From Periconia sp. R9002 (lineage: Eukaryota; Ascomycota; Dothideomycetes; Pleosporales; Periconiaceae): a DNA stretch of 15,840 nt. Positions 4,381 to 13,648 of the stretch are shown piece after piece; position 1 is the stretch's first letter; each line of letters opens with the position of its first letter. The DNA lies in assembly GCA_023627715.1 (NCBI GenBank), contig JAMAHW010000211.1, positions 1 through 15,840 on the forward strand. Reading direction: 5' to 3'. The notes below the pieces were generated by a model. It was not told where the DNA came from and ran no database searches. It was given only the letters and a program-made list of their open reading frames with translations. A program made the translations under genes and the position numbers.

Positions 4381-7253
4381 CTAAAGAGAGAACTTTGAAC
4401 TTCTAATCCCTATCTTCATCAGCCAACGTGATAGCTTTGACCTCTTCTCGTTAGATATGTTTGCGACGTCGGTAGTTGGCATCGCACAAGAAAGGGTCGA
4501 CCGATCCCGCTCTTGCGACGCAAGCATTTCGCGATAATGTTGGCGACACGAGAGGGTAGTCGGATGGTCTTCTCCTAGGACGGCGGTGTATGCAGCGCAT
4601 GCCCGCTCGTATAGAGCGTGAGATTCGGTGAAGTGATGTTGATTGGCGAGGAGGCGGGCAAGGTTGTACACGCTCATCAGCGTGTCGGGATGCTCCCACC
4701 CAAGCACCTTCTCCCTCCGCGCCAGCGTCTCCCGGTTCATCGATTCCGCCTCCTCGTACTTGCCTTGGCGCCCCAGCACGAGCGCTAAGTTGTTCATGCT
4801 TGTCAGCGTGTCGGGATGCTCCCGCCCAAGTACCTTCTCACACATCGACAGCTCCTGCCTGTGCATCGATTCCGCCTCCTCGTACTTGCCTTGGCGCCCC
4901 AGCACGAGCGCTAAGTTGTTCATGCTTGTCAGCGTGTCGGGATGCTCCCGCCCAAGTACCTTCTCACACATCGACAGCTCCTGCCTGTGCATCGATTCCG
5001 CCTCTTCGTATTTGCCTTGGCTGTTCAGCACGAGCGCTAAGTTGTTCATACTCGTCAGCGTGTCGGAATGCTCATTCCCCAACTTCCTTTCTCTCAATGA
5101 CAGCGCCTGTCGGTGCGTCGTCTCTGCAGCAGGGTATTGACCGAGGCTGGTCTGACATCGTCCTATCCGATCTAGAAGCGAGGCTTTGGCTGTTTCTTCT
5201 AACACGCTGCCCGATCTAGTCACGTGTATTGCGTGCGAAAGGTAACCCGTCCACACTTCCTTCTTCTCGTGTCCACCGCGCGGGACCAGCTCTTCGAGTC
5301 GCTCCGCCGCTTTTACTGTCCAAGTCGACTGCTCATCATGTCCCTTCAGCCACCATGCCGACGCCATGTGGACCAGCCTGTGCATGTCGAAGTACTTCTC
5401 ACTACCCGGCTCCTGTGAAGCCTGCTGCCGCTCCGTGACGAACGCATATCCTTTCAGCGTCCCTATCGCTTTAGTCTGCTGCAGCACCGAGTCACCGGGA
5501 GGCAACAGCGATCGAGGGATGCTGATGCGATCGATGCACGCCATAAACGAAAGATACTCCGCAGCAAGCGGGTCTTGCCTCTGTATCTGGTCGAACGAGA
5601 TGTGCCAGGTCCTGGCGATCGTGCTTTCCAGCTCCTTGTATCGGCTGGGATCCTCGAAACGCTCACTGAAGAGCTCGGTCTCGGTGTTTGCTGTCCGGAA
5701 CAGCGAAAGGTACTCGGATACTGACACGTCGTTGCTGTTGATGAAGGCGGACGCCTGCACAACGGCAAGCGGCAGATACTCGAGTGACTTCAGCAACTGG
5801 TCTACAGCCTCCTTGTCTTTAAGCAGTGTCTGCTTCGATATCCGCCGCGCCAGCAGTTGCCGCGCTTCTGTTTGGCTCATATCCTCTAGCTCCAGAACAT
5901 GGCCCGGAGTCAACTCTTCGGCAGCTTTCCTGTTCCGTGTCGTGAACAGGATCTTGCCGTTGTTGCTATGCGGGAGGTAGTCCTGCAGACGAGCCGACCC
6001 AGCATCGACGCTAGTGCCGTCTGCGAGCACTTCAGTGTCATCTGCGAGAACGCCAGTGTCATCTGCATTGTCCACAATCATCACCCAGTGACCCGCGCCG
6101 TCCGAGCTCAACGCATCCTTAACAAGCTGCTTGATATCCGCGTTGTTCTCGCTGATGCCAGGCACGCGAAGACGGAGGCCGATGTCGCGAAACGCAAGCT
6201 CGAAGCTCTGGCGGCTGAGGGCCGGCACCCAGAAAACGGGACGCCCGGTGTGTCGAAGCAACGCGCGGTAGGCAAGCTCGAGGGCCAGCGCTGACTTCCC
6301 GCAGCCCCCCAGTCCATATATCGTCATGCGATGAGGTGTGCCGGAGTCGACGAAGTGTTCGAGAGAGTGAAGCTGGTCTTCTCGCCCGACAAACTGCTCG
6401 TTTCTCGGAAAGGGCAACGACGAGGAGACTGCGCTTCATTAGCTCGCATGCATGACTGTTGCTGCGCGAACGTACCCGTCAAGTCACGTACATGTCCAGT
6501 TCCTCCTCCCTTCTGCCGCCTCTGCACCTCTTCCTTCAGTCGTAGCCTTGCGTACGCTTCGCCTTCGCCGTAGATAAGCGGCAAGAACACTCCGCATATC
6601 CCCAGCAGGCAATACACCTTGTCCTCCTCCAACGTTGTTGTGCGCCTGGCTGCCCAGCTTATCCGTTCCTCGACGCTGAACTTGCTCAGACGCTGTTCCC
6701 TTAGCGCTTCGATAGGAACCTTGGTGATTTCATGTATTTCCTGCTCCAACGACATCCTGCTACCTATCCGCTTGCCCTCCTTGGAGAAGAACTCGACCGT
6801 GGCCGGCGCCAGCAGCTCTTGCAGCGTCCAGCCTCGCGTGAACCATCGGCTCCGTCGAAATGCAGCCTCCCACGAACTGCGAAGGAGCTGGGGATCAACA
6901 ACCTCGTCGGAGACCTCGACATCGGACAGATACACATAGCACTTGCTTGCCCGCTGGTACCAGCGGAACATGGAGTTGATCGCAGCGGAGAGCTCTGCAC
7001 TGCTGGACTTGTCGATGCAGCAGGTGTCCACCCACGAGTATTGCAGACCATCTTCATCCGCTCTATCCACGCAGAAGCGGAATTCGTCGTAGCCGGCCTT
7101 GTCCTTGCCTGTGCCCCCGACCAGCTCATGGTAGGAGACTTCCTGGCCCTCGGCCCATGTGTGCGACAGGATGGCATATGGAGGGAGGCTGCTGTTGTCG
7201 CTGAACAGAACCAGTTCGAGACCGCCGTGCGGCGAGCGCTTCAGAAGACGCAT
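4381..7253 (-). CDS. HET-NB-ARC-TPR receptor (fungal NLR/STAND)
   Basis: This is a three-part recognition protein: an N-terminal HET cell-death domain, a nucleotide-binding oligomerisation switch and a repeat sensor. ATG is at 7253. My model is exon 1 7253-6476, a 47-nt intron 6475-6429 (GTACGT donor, GCTAAT branch, CAG acceptor) and exon 2 6428-4381, giving 941 residues. A donor at 6487 (GTGACT, 59-nt intron) would join in the same frame. The HET domain spans about 24-230 (PPYAILSHTW, WVDTCCIDKSS, RGWTLQELLAP). NB-ARC begins near 265 with FVGRE, then P-loop GLGGCGKS (298-305), Walker B VMIVDNADD (375-383), ILFTTRNRK (420-427), LPLAV and an MHRLVHMA motif at the MHD position. Four to five 42-residue kinesin-light-chain-type TPRs follow (EHPDTLTSMNNLA, QGKYEEAE), two of them almost identical. 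All key motifs are present, so the gene looks functional. Ligand unknown. Confidence 0.9.
4675..5052 (-). repeat. 126-bp TPR-coding tandem repeats, nearly identical
   Basis: Three 42-codon units lie in tandem. Units 4801-4926 and 4927-5052 are identical over about the first 78 bp and differ at a few sites afterwards. Unit 4675-4800 shares the last roughly 60 bp exactly with unit 4801-4926 but not its first half. This mosaic pattern points to recent unequal crossing-over or conversion within the sensor domain of the receptor. Confidence 0.85.
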
Positions 7254-9002: not shown

Positions 9003-9189
9003 TCACGACAGGGCGATCAAGAATAAAAAGATTGCAGTATCTCGACCACGACCCTTGTATCTAATTTTCGCCCTTGGTAGCGGAATCCGACTGCTCTTTC
9101 TCATCGAATCAATGTCGACCTTACCCGTCCCCAAGTAAGAGCCTGACCACCGCCTCGTGCCCAAGTTCCTTCGCTCGACGTATTGGCGT
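9003..9189 (-). pseudogene. Ankyrin-coding sequence beyond the array, frame-broken
   Basis: A possible exon starts at 9189 after acceptor ACTAG and reads TPIRRAKELGHEAVVRLLLG, DG, then TAA at 9121-9123. The first part is a clear ankyrin repeat. One extra base in a GGGG run explains the break: in the shifted frame the sequence continues TGKVDIDS and RIPLPRA, and after a further shift VVVEILQSF, all ankyrin-like. It lies on the same strand as the NACHT-ankyrin gene and is in phase 0 with the array's last codon. I therefore read it as the 3' part of that gene. Either the protein ends at 9121 or the distal repeats are dead. Confidence 0.6.
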
Positions 9190-9230
9190 CTAGTCATAGT
9201 TTCAGAAGGGAGGATTTACTAAGAGTCGGA

Positions 9231-11144
9231 TTCACTCACAACCTATAACATCCAGAGACGCCAGGTTTAGTTGTCAAGTCCATAGAGGCATATGCCAAGC
9301 TCATGGTAGGTTCACTTACACGCTATAACAGCCAGAGACGCCAGGGTTAGCTATCAACTTCATAGAGGCATGTGTCAAGCTTATGGTGGGTCCACTTACA
9401 CGCTATAACAGCCAGAGACGCCAGGGTTAGCTATCAACTCCATAGAGGTATGTGCCAAGCTCAGGGTAGGTTCACTTACGCCCTATAACAGCAGAAACGC
9501 CAGGATTATCTATCAATTCCATAGAGGCATATGCCAAGCTCAAGGTGGGTTCACTTACGTACTATAACAGCCAGAGACTCCAGGGTTAGCTATCAACTCC
9601 GTAGGGATGTGTGCCAAACTTGAAGTAAGTTCACTCACAGGCTATACCAGCCAGAAACACCAGGGTTAGCCGTTAACTCGACAGAGGCATGTGCCAAGCT
9701 TAAGGTAGGTTCACTTACGCTCTATAATAGTAGAGACGCCAAGATTAGCTGTCAACTCCATAGAGGCATATGCTAATTTCAGAGTAGGTTCACTTACGTC
9801 CTATAACAGCAGAAACGCTAAAGTTAGCTATTAATTCTATAGACGCATGCACCAAGCTCAAGGTAAGTTCACTTACATACTATAACAGCCAGAGACGCTA
9901 GGGTTAGCTATTAACTCTACAGAAGCATGTGTCAAGCTTATAGTAGGTTTACTTACAATCTATAACAGCCAGAAACGCCAGGGTTAGCTATAGACCCTAC
10001 AAATGCATATGCTAAGCTCAAGGTAGGTTCACTTACACTCTATAACAGATAAAGACGCCAAGGTTAGCTATAGATCCTATAAAGGCATATGCCAAGCTTA
10101 TAGTAGGTTCACTTACGGGCTATACCAGCCAGAGACAACAGGGTTAGCTGTCAACTCCATAGAGGCATATACCAATTTCAGGGTAGGTTCACTTACAGGC
10201 TACAACAGCAGAGACGCCAGGGTTAGCTATAGACCCTATAAAGGCGTGTACCAAACTTAAATTAGGTTCACTTACACGCTATTACAGCAGAGACGCTAGG
10301 TTAGCTATCAACTCTATAGAGGCATATGCCAAGCTCAAGGTGGGTTTACTTACGTACTATAACAGCCAGGGACGCCAGGGTTAGCTATCAACTTCATAGA
10401 GGTATAGGCCAGGCTAAAAGTAGGTTCGCTTACGCCCTATAACAGTAGAGACGCCAGAGTTAGCTATAGACTCTATAAAGGCTTATGCTAATTTTAGAGT
10501 AGGTTCACTTACGTCCTATAACAGTAGAAACGCCAAAGTTAGCTATTAATTCTAGACGCATGCACCAAGCTCAAGGTAAGTTCACTTACATACTATAACA
10601 GCCAGAGACGCTAGGGTTAGCTATTAACTCTACAGAAGCATGGGCTAAGCTTATAGTAGGTTTACTTACAATCTATAACAGCCAGAAACGCCAGGGTTAG
10701 CTATAGACCCTATAAATGCATATGCTAAGCTCAGGGTAGGTTCACTTACGCTCTATAACAGCAGAAACGCCAAGGTTAGCTATCAACTCCATAAACGCAT
10801 GCGCCAAGCTCAAGGTAGGTTCACTTACGTCCTAGAACGGCAGAAACGCCAGAGTTAGATATAGACTCTATTAAGGCATGTGCCAAGCTCAGGGTGGGTT
10901 CACTTACGGGCTATACCAGCCAGAGACAACAGAGTTAGATGTTAACTCCATAGAGGCATATGCCAATTTCAGGGTAGGTTCACTTACAGGCTACAACAGC
11001 AGAAACGCCAGGGTTAGCTATAGGCCCTGTAAAGGCATGTACCAAGCTCGGGGTGGGTTCACTTACGCTCTATAACAGTAGAGACGCTAGGGTTAGCTGT
11101 CAACTTCATAGAGGCATGTGCCAAGCTCGGGCGGGTTCACTTAC
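9231..11144 (-). repeat. Tandem array of 24 intron-like ~80-bp units separated by single triplets
   Basis: There are 24 units of 77-81 bp. In the minus orientation each begins GTAAGTGAACC and ends with a TAG acceptor, usually TTATAG, about 25 nt after an AGCTAAC branch-site motif. Exactly 3 nt separate each acceptor from the next donor. Of 25 donors, 22 are GTAAGT, two GTGAGT and one GTAAGC. All 24 acceptors are TAG, and 22 of 24 units retain CTAAC or CTAAT. By eye, typical bodies differ from the consensus at roughly 8-10 positions. The 24 triplets are 11 different sequences, all sense codons on the minus strand. The array directly follows the phase-0 end of the ankyrin exon at 11145. It is either a series of true introns with one-codon exons or a minisatellite derived from one intron. 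Confidence 0.9.
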
Positions 11145-13648
11145 ATATACAGTATACTCATAGTCAATCTTGGCTCCAGATTTTAGTAGCAATTCAACCA
11201 CATCCTTGTGTCCTCCCTCTGTCGCCCACGATAGCGGATTCCACCCGTTCTGGTCCTCTGTGTGGACATCAACGTCTCCCGTAGCAAGAAAAAGCTTGAA
11301 GATGGCCCCTTGCCCGTTCCTAGCAGCTGCCAACAGTGGCGTCTGACCATCATTATCTCTTGCGTCCAAATCAGTCCTGCCCGTGTCGAGAAGCAACCTG
11401 ACCACGTCCTCATGCCCCTTCTTCGCGGCGGAGAACAGTAGCTCCTTGCTAATATCCTCAAAATCAGCTTGGGTATCTCCCTTGAGTAGTAGCTCAATTA
11501 TTTCCTTGTATCCGTTGCAAACCGCATACGATAATGGTGTCCCTCCGATTTCATCCTTCGAATCCGCTCGGGCTCCGGCCTTAATTAGCAGCTTGACGAC
11601 GGCCACGTTCCCACTCCAAACAGCATAGGATAATGGAGTTCGACCGTATCTATCCACTGTGTCGATTTTGGCTCTCTTCCTAGACAATAGCCTGACGACC
11701 CGCTGACGTGTACTAACATCATTGATCAATAGCTTGACTACGGCGTCAAAGCCAATTCCTGCAGCCCAGGATAGAGCCGACCGCTGGTAGGTATCATCCC
11801 GAGAATTCAAGTCAACGTCATCCATCTTAAGCAAATGCTTCACTGCTGTGCTCAGTCCGAAATACGATGCAATCATAAGATTGGTGAATCCCCGGGGAAA
11901 ACCCGTGTTTGTACTAATCCAATAGATTCTGAACCAAGTCAGGCAACGCCGTGAACTCATTTCACAGATCCTCAGGATTGATTGCGTCATTGTGCCTTGT
12001 GCCTCAATCTGCAATTCGCGGAAGTGAGCCGCCCAGTGCTTGGCAGAGTAGTCAAGCAAGGTATGATTCTCAACGTATTGGGATAATGGTCCATCTTCGT
12101 CGAGTGGATTGTTCTCAAAGTCTTCGAAAAGTAGATGCCAGATGCAGATTTCGGTGAGAATACGATGAGACTCTTGCGGCCGTAGTGAGTGCTTCCATTC
12201 GAGACCCATGGGAACGCCTTTGGGGAAATTCGCTGTATCATTCTGAACCAAGAATTCCTTCGCAGTCTGATGAAGCAGGTAGAGCCTCGAGTCGATGATC
12301 GTCACAAAAAGGCCACAGATGTCCCGTACATCCTCACAGAAACGGCATTCGGGTATGAGATCGGGATCGAGTCCATAATAAGACCGATGATTTTCTCGAA
12401 GAACGAACGCTAAGGCCATCTCTGTGACGGTCAAGGGCCTTGCTGCTGCTACAACAATATGCAGTATTTTCTTGGCCTTTTCCGGGTCGTGACTCTTAGA
12501 GAGAATCCTGTCGTATGCCTCATCGATGGTTTTGGGAAGGTGGGAAGTGACCTTGAGTATTCCAATTTTGTTCATGTACCTTTCCTTCACAAATAGGTCT
12601 AAGGTAAGGTGTACCCATAGATATGTCCTATTCGGAACTCTCATAAGCCCTCTTAGTAGAAGTTTTCGCTCTTCATGTGTGAGCCCCAGTCGTATGCCAA
12701 TATCCTGGACTCTGGCTTTGATGAAAACATCGATCTCTTGGGAAATCTTTTTCATCTCGTCGTCGCCTTCCCCACTCAAATGAATCATCGGCAATCCCGG
12801 GATCTTTAGGGGTTGGAAGCCCTGGCGAATTTCACCCCAGGGCCGACTTGTGAGGAGAAACTTCAAATTGAAGCCCTGTGGAGTGCCATATAGCTCGCAT
12901 AGCTTTTGGGCAAACTGGAACCTTCCTTGACCTTCGCATTCATCGAAAGCATCTAGAATACAGATGATTTCGCCGGTGTTCTCATCTTTTGCGACATTGA
13001 TAAGGATTTGCCAAAGATCAGTAAATGAACTGGTAAACGTCTCTCCGTCGATGTCGAACTGATAGAGAATTGCATCAGAGAGCAGGGCGGGTTTCTGTGT
13101 GAAAAGCTGGAGCAGGATGCAGCAAAGGGCGCTAACCACGTTTCTCTGGTCCTCAAAGTCGTCTTTGAAGAAGAAGTAACACACGGTTGTGGATTCCGTG
13201 GTCCGAAGAACAGAATTAACCAGGTGTTTTGCTAAAACTGACTTTCCGCATCCAGGGTCCGCAGACACCCAAAGCATTCTTGAAGACTTGCTCTCTTGCC
13301 AGTCCCGAAAAAACTTGTGAGATGTGAACCATTCACATGTCCCTGGGACCCGATCTGGGTTTCGTTCTTTTCGATCTCGGTATGGTGATTTGTTGAGGCA
13401 TCTCAGAAACGTTGTTTCCTTGTCCTTCCGGGGCGAGGCGGATGGTGATCGACCTTGCGACCCGCCTAGGTGGTAATGATTGTTCTGCAAGCCTGTCGAC
13501 GTTAGAATGGAATGAGACGTCGACGTCGACTGGACCCACCGATTACTTGTGCGTGGCCCGACGCGTCGCCAACCACAACCCCGCGATTGCTGGAAATCGC
13601 ATCAAACACCTTTGCGCCTGTCGCTATTGTCGGCGCGTTGCCGGTCAT
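11106..13648 (-). CDS. NACHT-ankyrin receptor with N-terminal signalling motif
   Basis: This is a fungal NLR. My model is exon 1 13648-13547, a 62-nt intron 13546-13485 (GTAATC, TTCTAAC branch, CAG) and exon 2 13484-11145. Beyond this it either ends at 11106 (first array intron retained) or continues through the array. Exon 1 holds a short motif (DAISSNRGVVVGDASGHA, residues 16-33) matching the C-terminus of the divergent hydrolase. A linker follows (FLRCLNKSPYRDR, GTCEWFTSHKFF), then NACHT with P-loop ADPGCGKS (109-116), Walker B ICILDAFDECE (208-218) and FLLTSRPW (243-250). The winged-helix region is about 340-450. Ankyrin repeats run from about 567 to 814 (YGRTPLSYAV, DGQTPLLAAARNG, NGWNPLSWATEGG). 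The motif, the switch and the repeats all look intact. It is expected to bind a cue through the ankyrins, oligomerise and template the effector's motif. Confidence 0.85.
13547..13648 (-). other. Exon 1 of the NACHT-ankyrin gene: receptor copy of the paired motif
   Basis: ATG at 13648 opens 34 codons that end at a GTAATC donor and join in phase 0 to AAC at 13484. Residues 16-33 contain NRGVVVGDA. The exon is short and easy to miss: without it the main frame has no ATG before the P-loop region. The match to the hydrolase C-terminus, with different third codon bases, supports it as real coding sequence. Confidence 0.75.

Follow-up and report, generated by a model that had tools for sequence, protein, structure and literature searches.

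The 15,840-nucleotide stretch of DNA analysed here (the window), from contig C211 of Periconia sp. R9002, carries on its minus strand, from position 11144 down to 9240, a tandem array of 24 intron-like units; behind each unit lies a 3-nt spacer, a putative single-codon exon. The array is likely to be a chain of U2-type introns, which arose through the in-place duplication of a resident intron and left single-codon exons between its members. This reading is based on the anatomy of the array, the conservation of its splice signals, the excess variation of the first two spacer bases and the signs, at the protein level, of an intron in relatives.

A recount reproduced the minus-strand anatomy given in the original prediction. 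Donors of the form GT[AG]AG[CT] and TAG acceptors are present in all 24 units and a branch site, CTAA[CT] (CTAAC or CTAAT), in 22 of them, units 21 and 24 being the deviants. All 24 spacers measure exactly 3 nt, despite body lengths of 74-77 nt (77 nt in 13 units, 76 nt in eight, 75 nt in two and 74 nt in one), and pairwise identity among the 24 bodies averages 0.81 (range 0.68-0.97). Unit 1 (11067..11144, minus strand) comprises the donor GTAAGT at 11144, a TAG acceptor and the first triplet, AGC, at 11069-11067. The first 12 triplets are, in order, AGC CCT CCC GAC AGC ATT TAT GAC GGC TAC CGT CCT and the last 12 are CCC AGT ATT TAT GAC AGC CCT TAC GGC CGT CGT GTT. A three-unit block occurs in duplicate, as units 6-8 (10513..10749, minus strand) and units 15-17 (9798..10036, minus strand), with bodies that are 96-97% identical and the triplets ATT TAT GAC in both copies. 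A candidate 25th and last intron of 50 nt (9190..9239, minus strand) has its donor at 9239, starts with the unit-like GTGAGTGAA and ends CTATGACTAG; its resemblance to the units is limited to the 5' part, the remainder being unrelated, and its inspection for a branch site gave no good CTRAY match. Were this intron kept, the protein would end VVSESDS beyond the last triplet.

The chain sits in phase 0 in a NACHT-ankyrin gene, as had been proposed. The open reading frame 5' of the array (11145..13601, minus strand) encodes 831 amino acids, which include an NTPase of the NPHP3_N/NACHT type together with ankyrin repeats (Pfam NPHP3_N, E 4e-40; Ank_2, E 2e-60; NACHT PF05729, 24.4 bits, just under the 26.7 cut-off), the NTPase and ankyrin architecture of Tuber-type genes. 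Its exon ends ...KSGAKIDYEYTVY at 11145 in phase 0, and an ankyrin frame, TPIRRAKELGHEAVVRLLL, is found on the far side of the array, while without splicing the host frame terminates at 11106, inside unit 1 (...YVSEPARAWHMPL stop). The ankyrin-coding exon predicted beyond the array is thus present as a frame, but is less intact than had been implied. The candidate downstream exon, TPIRRAKELGHEAVVRLLLGDG (9121..9189, minus strand), extends over 22 codons to a stop, and the next repeat is a frameshifted remnant (GKVDIDSMRKSSRIPLPRAK..., VVVEILQSFYS and a stop; 9006..9120, minus strand), so that the 3' end of the gene may be decaying or mis-assembled. A protein search with the host frame returned 2563 matches. 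Among the best 120 of these the closest are two nameless proteins with 87 and 86% identity, followed by a Byssothecium circinans protein (81%) and proteins of Zopfia, Lindgomyces and Phaeosphaeriaceae, with one Geoglossum protein also included; Tuber does not occur among the organism names of these 120, many of which are nameless. The 3' parts of four NACHT-type/ankyrin paralogues (on C161, C30, C67 and C71; of 73 matches) contain no array. Elsewhere in the window, highly alike 126-nt tandem repeats (4663-5073; 91% matches) are found in an NB-ARC/TPR gene, and highly alike 96-nt DUF7104 tandem repeats (1707-2033) behind a HET domain. In gene content, the window resembles a cluster of the self/nonself-recognition type.

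Within the array, the splice signals are frozen while the triplets drift. The ten core signal columns (the GT and AG of GTRAG, the TAA of the branch site and the TAG) are all invariant across the 24 units, versus ten of the 66 remaining body columns (Fisher p = 1.9e-7, which is indicative only, as the units have common descent and conservation among such copies overstates selection), and the earlier remark that broken splice sites are rarer than chance would allow is upheld on these terms. On a tree of the bodies, the three spacer columns require 12, 10 and 7 changes, against a mean of 1.82 and a maximum of 9 for body columns, so that spacer columns 1 and 2 exceed every body column and column 3 does not. 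The entropies of spacer bases 1 and 2 (1.97 and 1.83 bits, respectively) are near saturation. The contrast between signals and triplets stands even with the p value weakened by shared descent, and the near-saturated codon positions 1 and 2 suggest selection for variability. Two observations bear on the idea of a mutation hotspot: the near-identical unit pairs 3 and 13, 6 and 15, 7 and 16, and 8 and 17 have the same triplets, and in 43 of the 52 unit pairs with a body identity of 85% or more, the first two triplet bases differ.

Relatives' proteins were compared at the same ankyrin position by a motif scan over 123 proteins (query included), in which the ankyrin loop DYxYx is followed by TPL or VS[EKR]. 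DYxYx passes directly to TPL in eight deposited proteins, six of them from Elaphomyces granulatus (P0026, P0043, P0047, P0048, P0053 and P0082) and the other two from Dendryphion nanum (P0018) and Immersiella caudata (P0104). In other relatives DYxY is followed by VS[EKR], which is how a GTNAGN donor is translated, and the tails of several correspond to a translated unit, VSEPALSLV..ELIANP..SGCYS (e.g. VSEPALSLVYAFVELIANPGISGCYSL). Dendryphion P0018 and Elaphomyces P0048 each contain both loop forms, a pattern that points to an intron and not to two designs of the gene. The comparison of orthologues put forward earlier as a check therefore points, in relatives known from their proteins alone, to the long-standing presence of an intron at this place in the ankyrin region; for some of the eight DYxYx-TPL proteins, the coding DNA may be uninterrupted. 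Insertion of the 2-kb array into an intact ankyrin exon was considered and dropped, since the relatives' proteins read into the unit at that place. A script for the tails gave 32 matches, including one false match (P0027) and the query itself; among 17 tails of 24-29 amino acids, 11 end [S/R][L/M/V]-stop and six do not, while P0029, which lies beyond the pattern of the script, is a twelfth with this ending. Such endings fit TAG-NNT-GTAA, and in several relatives a second donor therefore appears to lie 3 nt past the first acceptor. The P0029 segment RIRARDYPYHRYDRPYG resembles annotated spliced single codons, and may be a modelling accident; the chance of a 17-residue stretch without M, W, Q, K and E is about 3%. 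Protein searches with the tails of P0029 and P0018 returned two and three matches, respectively. Relatives' DNA was sought in viral contigs by the junction pattern, with two matches, neither an array, and scanning viral and genome contigs at the protein level turned up no relatives.

Further chains are found in the same genome (42.9 Mb in 267 contigs). A donor-branch-acceptor-3 nt-donor pattern occurs at 25 places, 19 in C211, four in C197 and two in C142 (control 0). Another pattern, restricted to a pyrimidine at the third spacer base, occurs at 36 places versus 18 for the control, with 30 of the 36 located in the C211, C197, C142 and C124 arrays and six single, one of which (C78) belongs to a chain; the fetched single-place loci on C4, C19, C50, C55 and C150 contain no chain. 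With the gap left free (0-30 nt), at least 186 places were counted versus at least 373 for the control pattern, a result that carries no information on spacing. In 65,366 bases from 15 fetched loci, chains of at least two junctions occur five times with 3-nt spacers and not at all with spacers of 1, 2, 4-9 or 12 nt, a spacer-length control that is biased, as the loci were picked mostly via 3-nt patterns.

Three of the chains are located in small secreted-protein-like genes (signal peptides judged by eye), whose exons ahead of the chain end in phase 0 and whose unit sequences are unlike that of C211. In C124 (locus L052, 3592-4361, plus strand), the exon MRTLAIFIATMVIPAIGGPVAPPGQLPTLDQRQT is followed by eight introns, separated by the seven triplets TGT ACC TGT GTC CCT TGC GGT, and then by PEKAA-stop. 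In C197 (locus L031, 4243-5330, minus strand), the exon MHFSPIILSMMIGAVLAAPVGQGPQRKALELR is followed by ten introns of 66-166 nt and the nine triplets TTC GGT GTT GGT TTC GAT AAT CGT CGC, after which a 12-codon exon, one further intron and PK-stop complete the gene; mean identity among the first nine bodies is 66% and the spacers are 3 nt in nine of nine cases. Intron 8 of this chain (L031 4533-4698, minus strand), at 166 nt, contains an extra stretch of about 90 nt and has kept its donor, branch site and acceptor. The divergent neighbour of the C197 chain gene is a trichodiene-synthase-like (TRI5) frame (L031 5513-6190, plus strand). In both C124 and C197, a phase-0 reading that begins at an ATG and runs through to a stop is possible. 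Schistosome micro-exon genes code for secreted proteins assembled from many small in-frame exons, and the C124 and C197 genes recall these; the schistosome exons are longer than 3 nt, and no homology is claimed. The third chain, in C142 (locus L030, about 4800-5400, minus strand), is partly decayed in look, with the exon MRSLMLFGLLMPSMAFALPSPSKPANDNVQGLEIRQ and five junctions that include one broken acceptor (TAA) and one CAA triplet. On C161 (34720-34950; locus L047, 1725-1945, plus strand), three TAG-NNN-GTAAGT junctions 68 nt apart, with the triplets GAA, CGT and ATT and no clear frame, are perhaps a relic. This contig also carries the closest NACHT-ankyrin paralogue. The C78 chain (locus L053, 1479-1886, minus strand) consists of six short introns (51, 59, 50, 67, 111 and 51 nt), mutually unrelated by eye, with 3-nt spacers, the triplets ATG GAT TAT GGA GTG GAT and then a further donor, the last acceptor being only tentatively placed. 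It sits between a protein-kinase-motif frame and a HET-like-motif frame (motifs judged by eye; Pfam on two short pieces adjoining the chain found nothing), and the upstream frame ends in phase 0. As it is not a tandem repeat, the C78 chain perhaps has another origin or is very old.

The triplets of the tandem arrays share a pyrimidine at the third base (NNY). This base is C in 12 and T in 12 of the 24 C211 triplets, and all 40 triplets of C211, C197 and C124 have a pyrimidine there; pyrimidines occupy 51% of the third positions in the upstream frame. No stop occurs among NNY codons and C/T exchange in them is silent. The original prediction rightly counted all 24 triplets as sense codons, yet this is not independent evidence, given that the third base is always C or T. 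A general NNY rule was dropped, as pyrimidines end four of five triplets in C142, two of three in C161 and three of six in C78, or 49 of 54 over all six loci, where exceptions are under-sampled because C124 and C78 were found by a pattern demanding a pyrimidine at matched junctions. The departure of the C78 triplets from NNY shows that it is not a requirement. NNY would keep a freely varying codon stop-safe and prevent an AG beside the donor.

The unit itself is confined to its array. A DNA search of the genome, with very common words skipped, found at least 21 matches to the C211 unit, all of them within the array and none outside it, and the junction pattern with at most one mismatch was found genome-wide at 25 places (control 1), 23 in the C211 array, one in the possible C161 relic and one on C127, the last an isolated junction that looks ordinary and was rejected as a further chain. 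The search for dispersed copies advised earlier thus gave no sign of a satellite at other loci or in both orientations, the counts being lower bounds. Across the genome the C124 and C197 units were likewise found at their own loci only, and the chains therefore appear to have grown in place. Fold z-scores were +1.9, +1.8 and -0.4 for three C211 units, -0.3 for C197 and +0.7 for C124, an unusually stable fold being observed in none of the five units tested, three of them from C211. The comparison with introner-like elements drawn in the original prediction is accordingly unsupported, and the successive insertion of such elements is hardly credible as the origin of the array. The units are intron-sized, near-identical and sense-oriented, and excerpts of two papers describe fungal introner-like elements as families of near-identical intron-sized sequences with symmetrical or stable secondary structure (PMC4457414, PMC9860276). 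Unlike these, the C211 units lie in tandem at one locus, with no dispersed copies found in these searches, only the C161 and C127 junctions outside the array and no stable fold. A likeness is also seen to the stwintrons of Hypoxylaceae, described in excerpts of two papers as complex intervening sequences of several U2 introns (PMC8469720, PMC12403724); stwintrons are nested, one intron interrupting the splice signal of the other, whereas the C211 introns lie side by side, 3 nt apart, with their signals intact.

It is very improbable that the array is unspliced, with the mRNA ending or stopping inside unit 1 and a non-coding 3' tandem repeat behind it. Such an arrangement would accommodate the stop at 11106 and the relatives' proteins that end in unit-like tails, many of which are possibly plain open reading frames, but the invariant donor, branch and acceptor columns are unexplained in an unspliced repeat, the eight deposited proteins pass from DYxYx to TPL, and phase 0 is held to the stop in two secreted-protein-like chain genes. 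Removal of the array mostly as a single 1.9-kb intron, or its skipping, with the codons as bystanders of a neutral intron minisatellite, is a less remote alternative, but still an unlikely one. With exons of one codon each, splicing from any donor to any downstream acceptor keeps the frame, the recent duplication of the three-unit block is in the style of an ordinary minisatellite, and the downstream exon is damaged. Neutral copies should, however, have lost GT, TAA or TAG in some cases, and none of the ten signal columns varies in 24 units, while the first two triplet columns are more variable than any body column. Furthermore, C197 has kept its nine 3-nt spacers despite 66% body identity and its wide range of intron lengths, and C78 keeps six among unrelated introns, for which tandem duplication alone is insufficient.

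The preferred reading, a chain of introns with single-codon exons, has a precedent. In excerpts of four papers (PMC4986451, PMC3689799, PMC10197012, PMC9815663), which cite Iotti et al. 2012 (Fungal Biol 116:261) for the truffle mini-exons, the NACHT-ANK ('nank') genes of Tuber melanosporum are reported to contain tens of 3-bp mini-exons that are alternatively spliced, and the original prediction that such chains were without precedent is superseded. The abstract of a 2024 paper states that functional microexons were not yet described in filamentous fungi (PMC11121469). The C211 gene resembles the nank genes, as presented in these excerpts, in its NACHT-ankyrin architecture and in its tens of codon-sized, here putative, exons toward the C-terminal recognition region, with 24 of 24 3-nt spacers between acceptor and donor signals, as read from DNA alone, in place of the tens of 3-bp exons. 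It differs in that its host is a Dothideomycete and not a truffle, and alternative splicing is reported for the truffle genes. By its anatomy, the C211 array probably belongs with the truffle genes, the new element being a Dothideomycete case, and the chains in secreted-protein-like genes and a kinase-HET region (C78) of the same genome appear to be a further new point. No report of such chains in secreted-protein-like or kinase-HET genes was found in the open-access literature, kinase-HET genes not being a named target of the search.

In the proposed mechanism, a single phase-0 intron, resident in a NACHT-ankyrin (NLR-like) gene of a fungus, would multiply by local tandem duplication, and the introns would be spliced one by one to give up to 24 consecutive single-codon exons. 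The retained codons would lengthen the ankyrin loop that lies between ...DYEYTVY and TPIRRA by a peptide of variable sequence, SPPDSIYDGYRPPSIYDSPYGRRV, and optional skipping would never shift the frame, such that one gene could in principle give many in-frame variants. The array is presumably transcribed and spliced, perhaps with a variable choice of exons, and the variable residues may have a role in recognition. A more tentative extension, to which somewhat less than an even chance is given, is that genes built codon by codon are a general device of this fungus and not special to NLR genes, with exon choice yielding libraries of peptide variants; the near-universal NNY of the tandem arrays would then make positions 1 and 2 stop-proof and the third silent, allowing free diversification, and C78 would be old or differently made. 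If spliced as read, the array would constitute a very dense arrangement of introns and a natural test of the spliceosome with 3-nt exons, would extend the truffle report to another ascomycete group and would show a route from a single old intron to a chain. It would also add secreted-protein-like and kinase-HET genes to those with such chains, with coding sequence that would escape standard gene finders.
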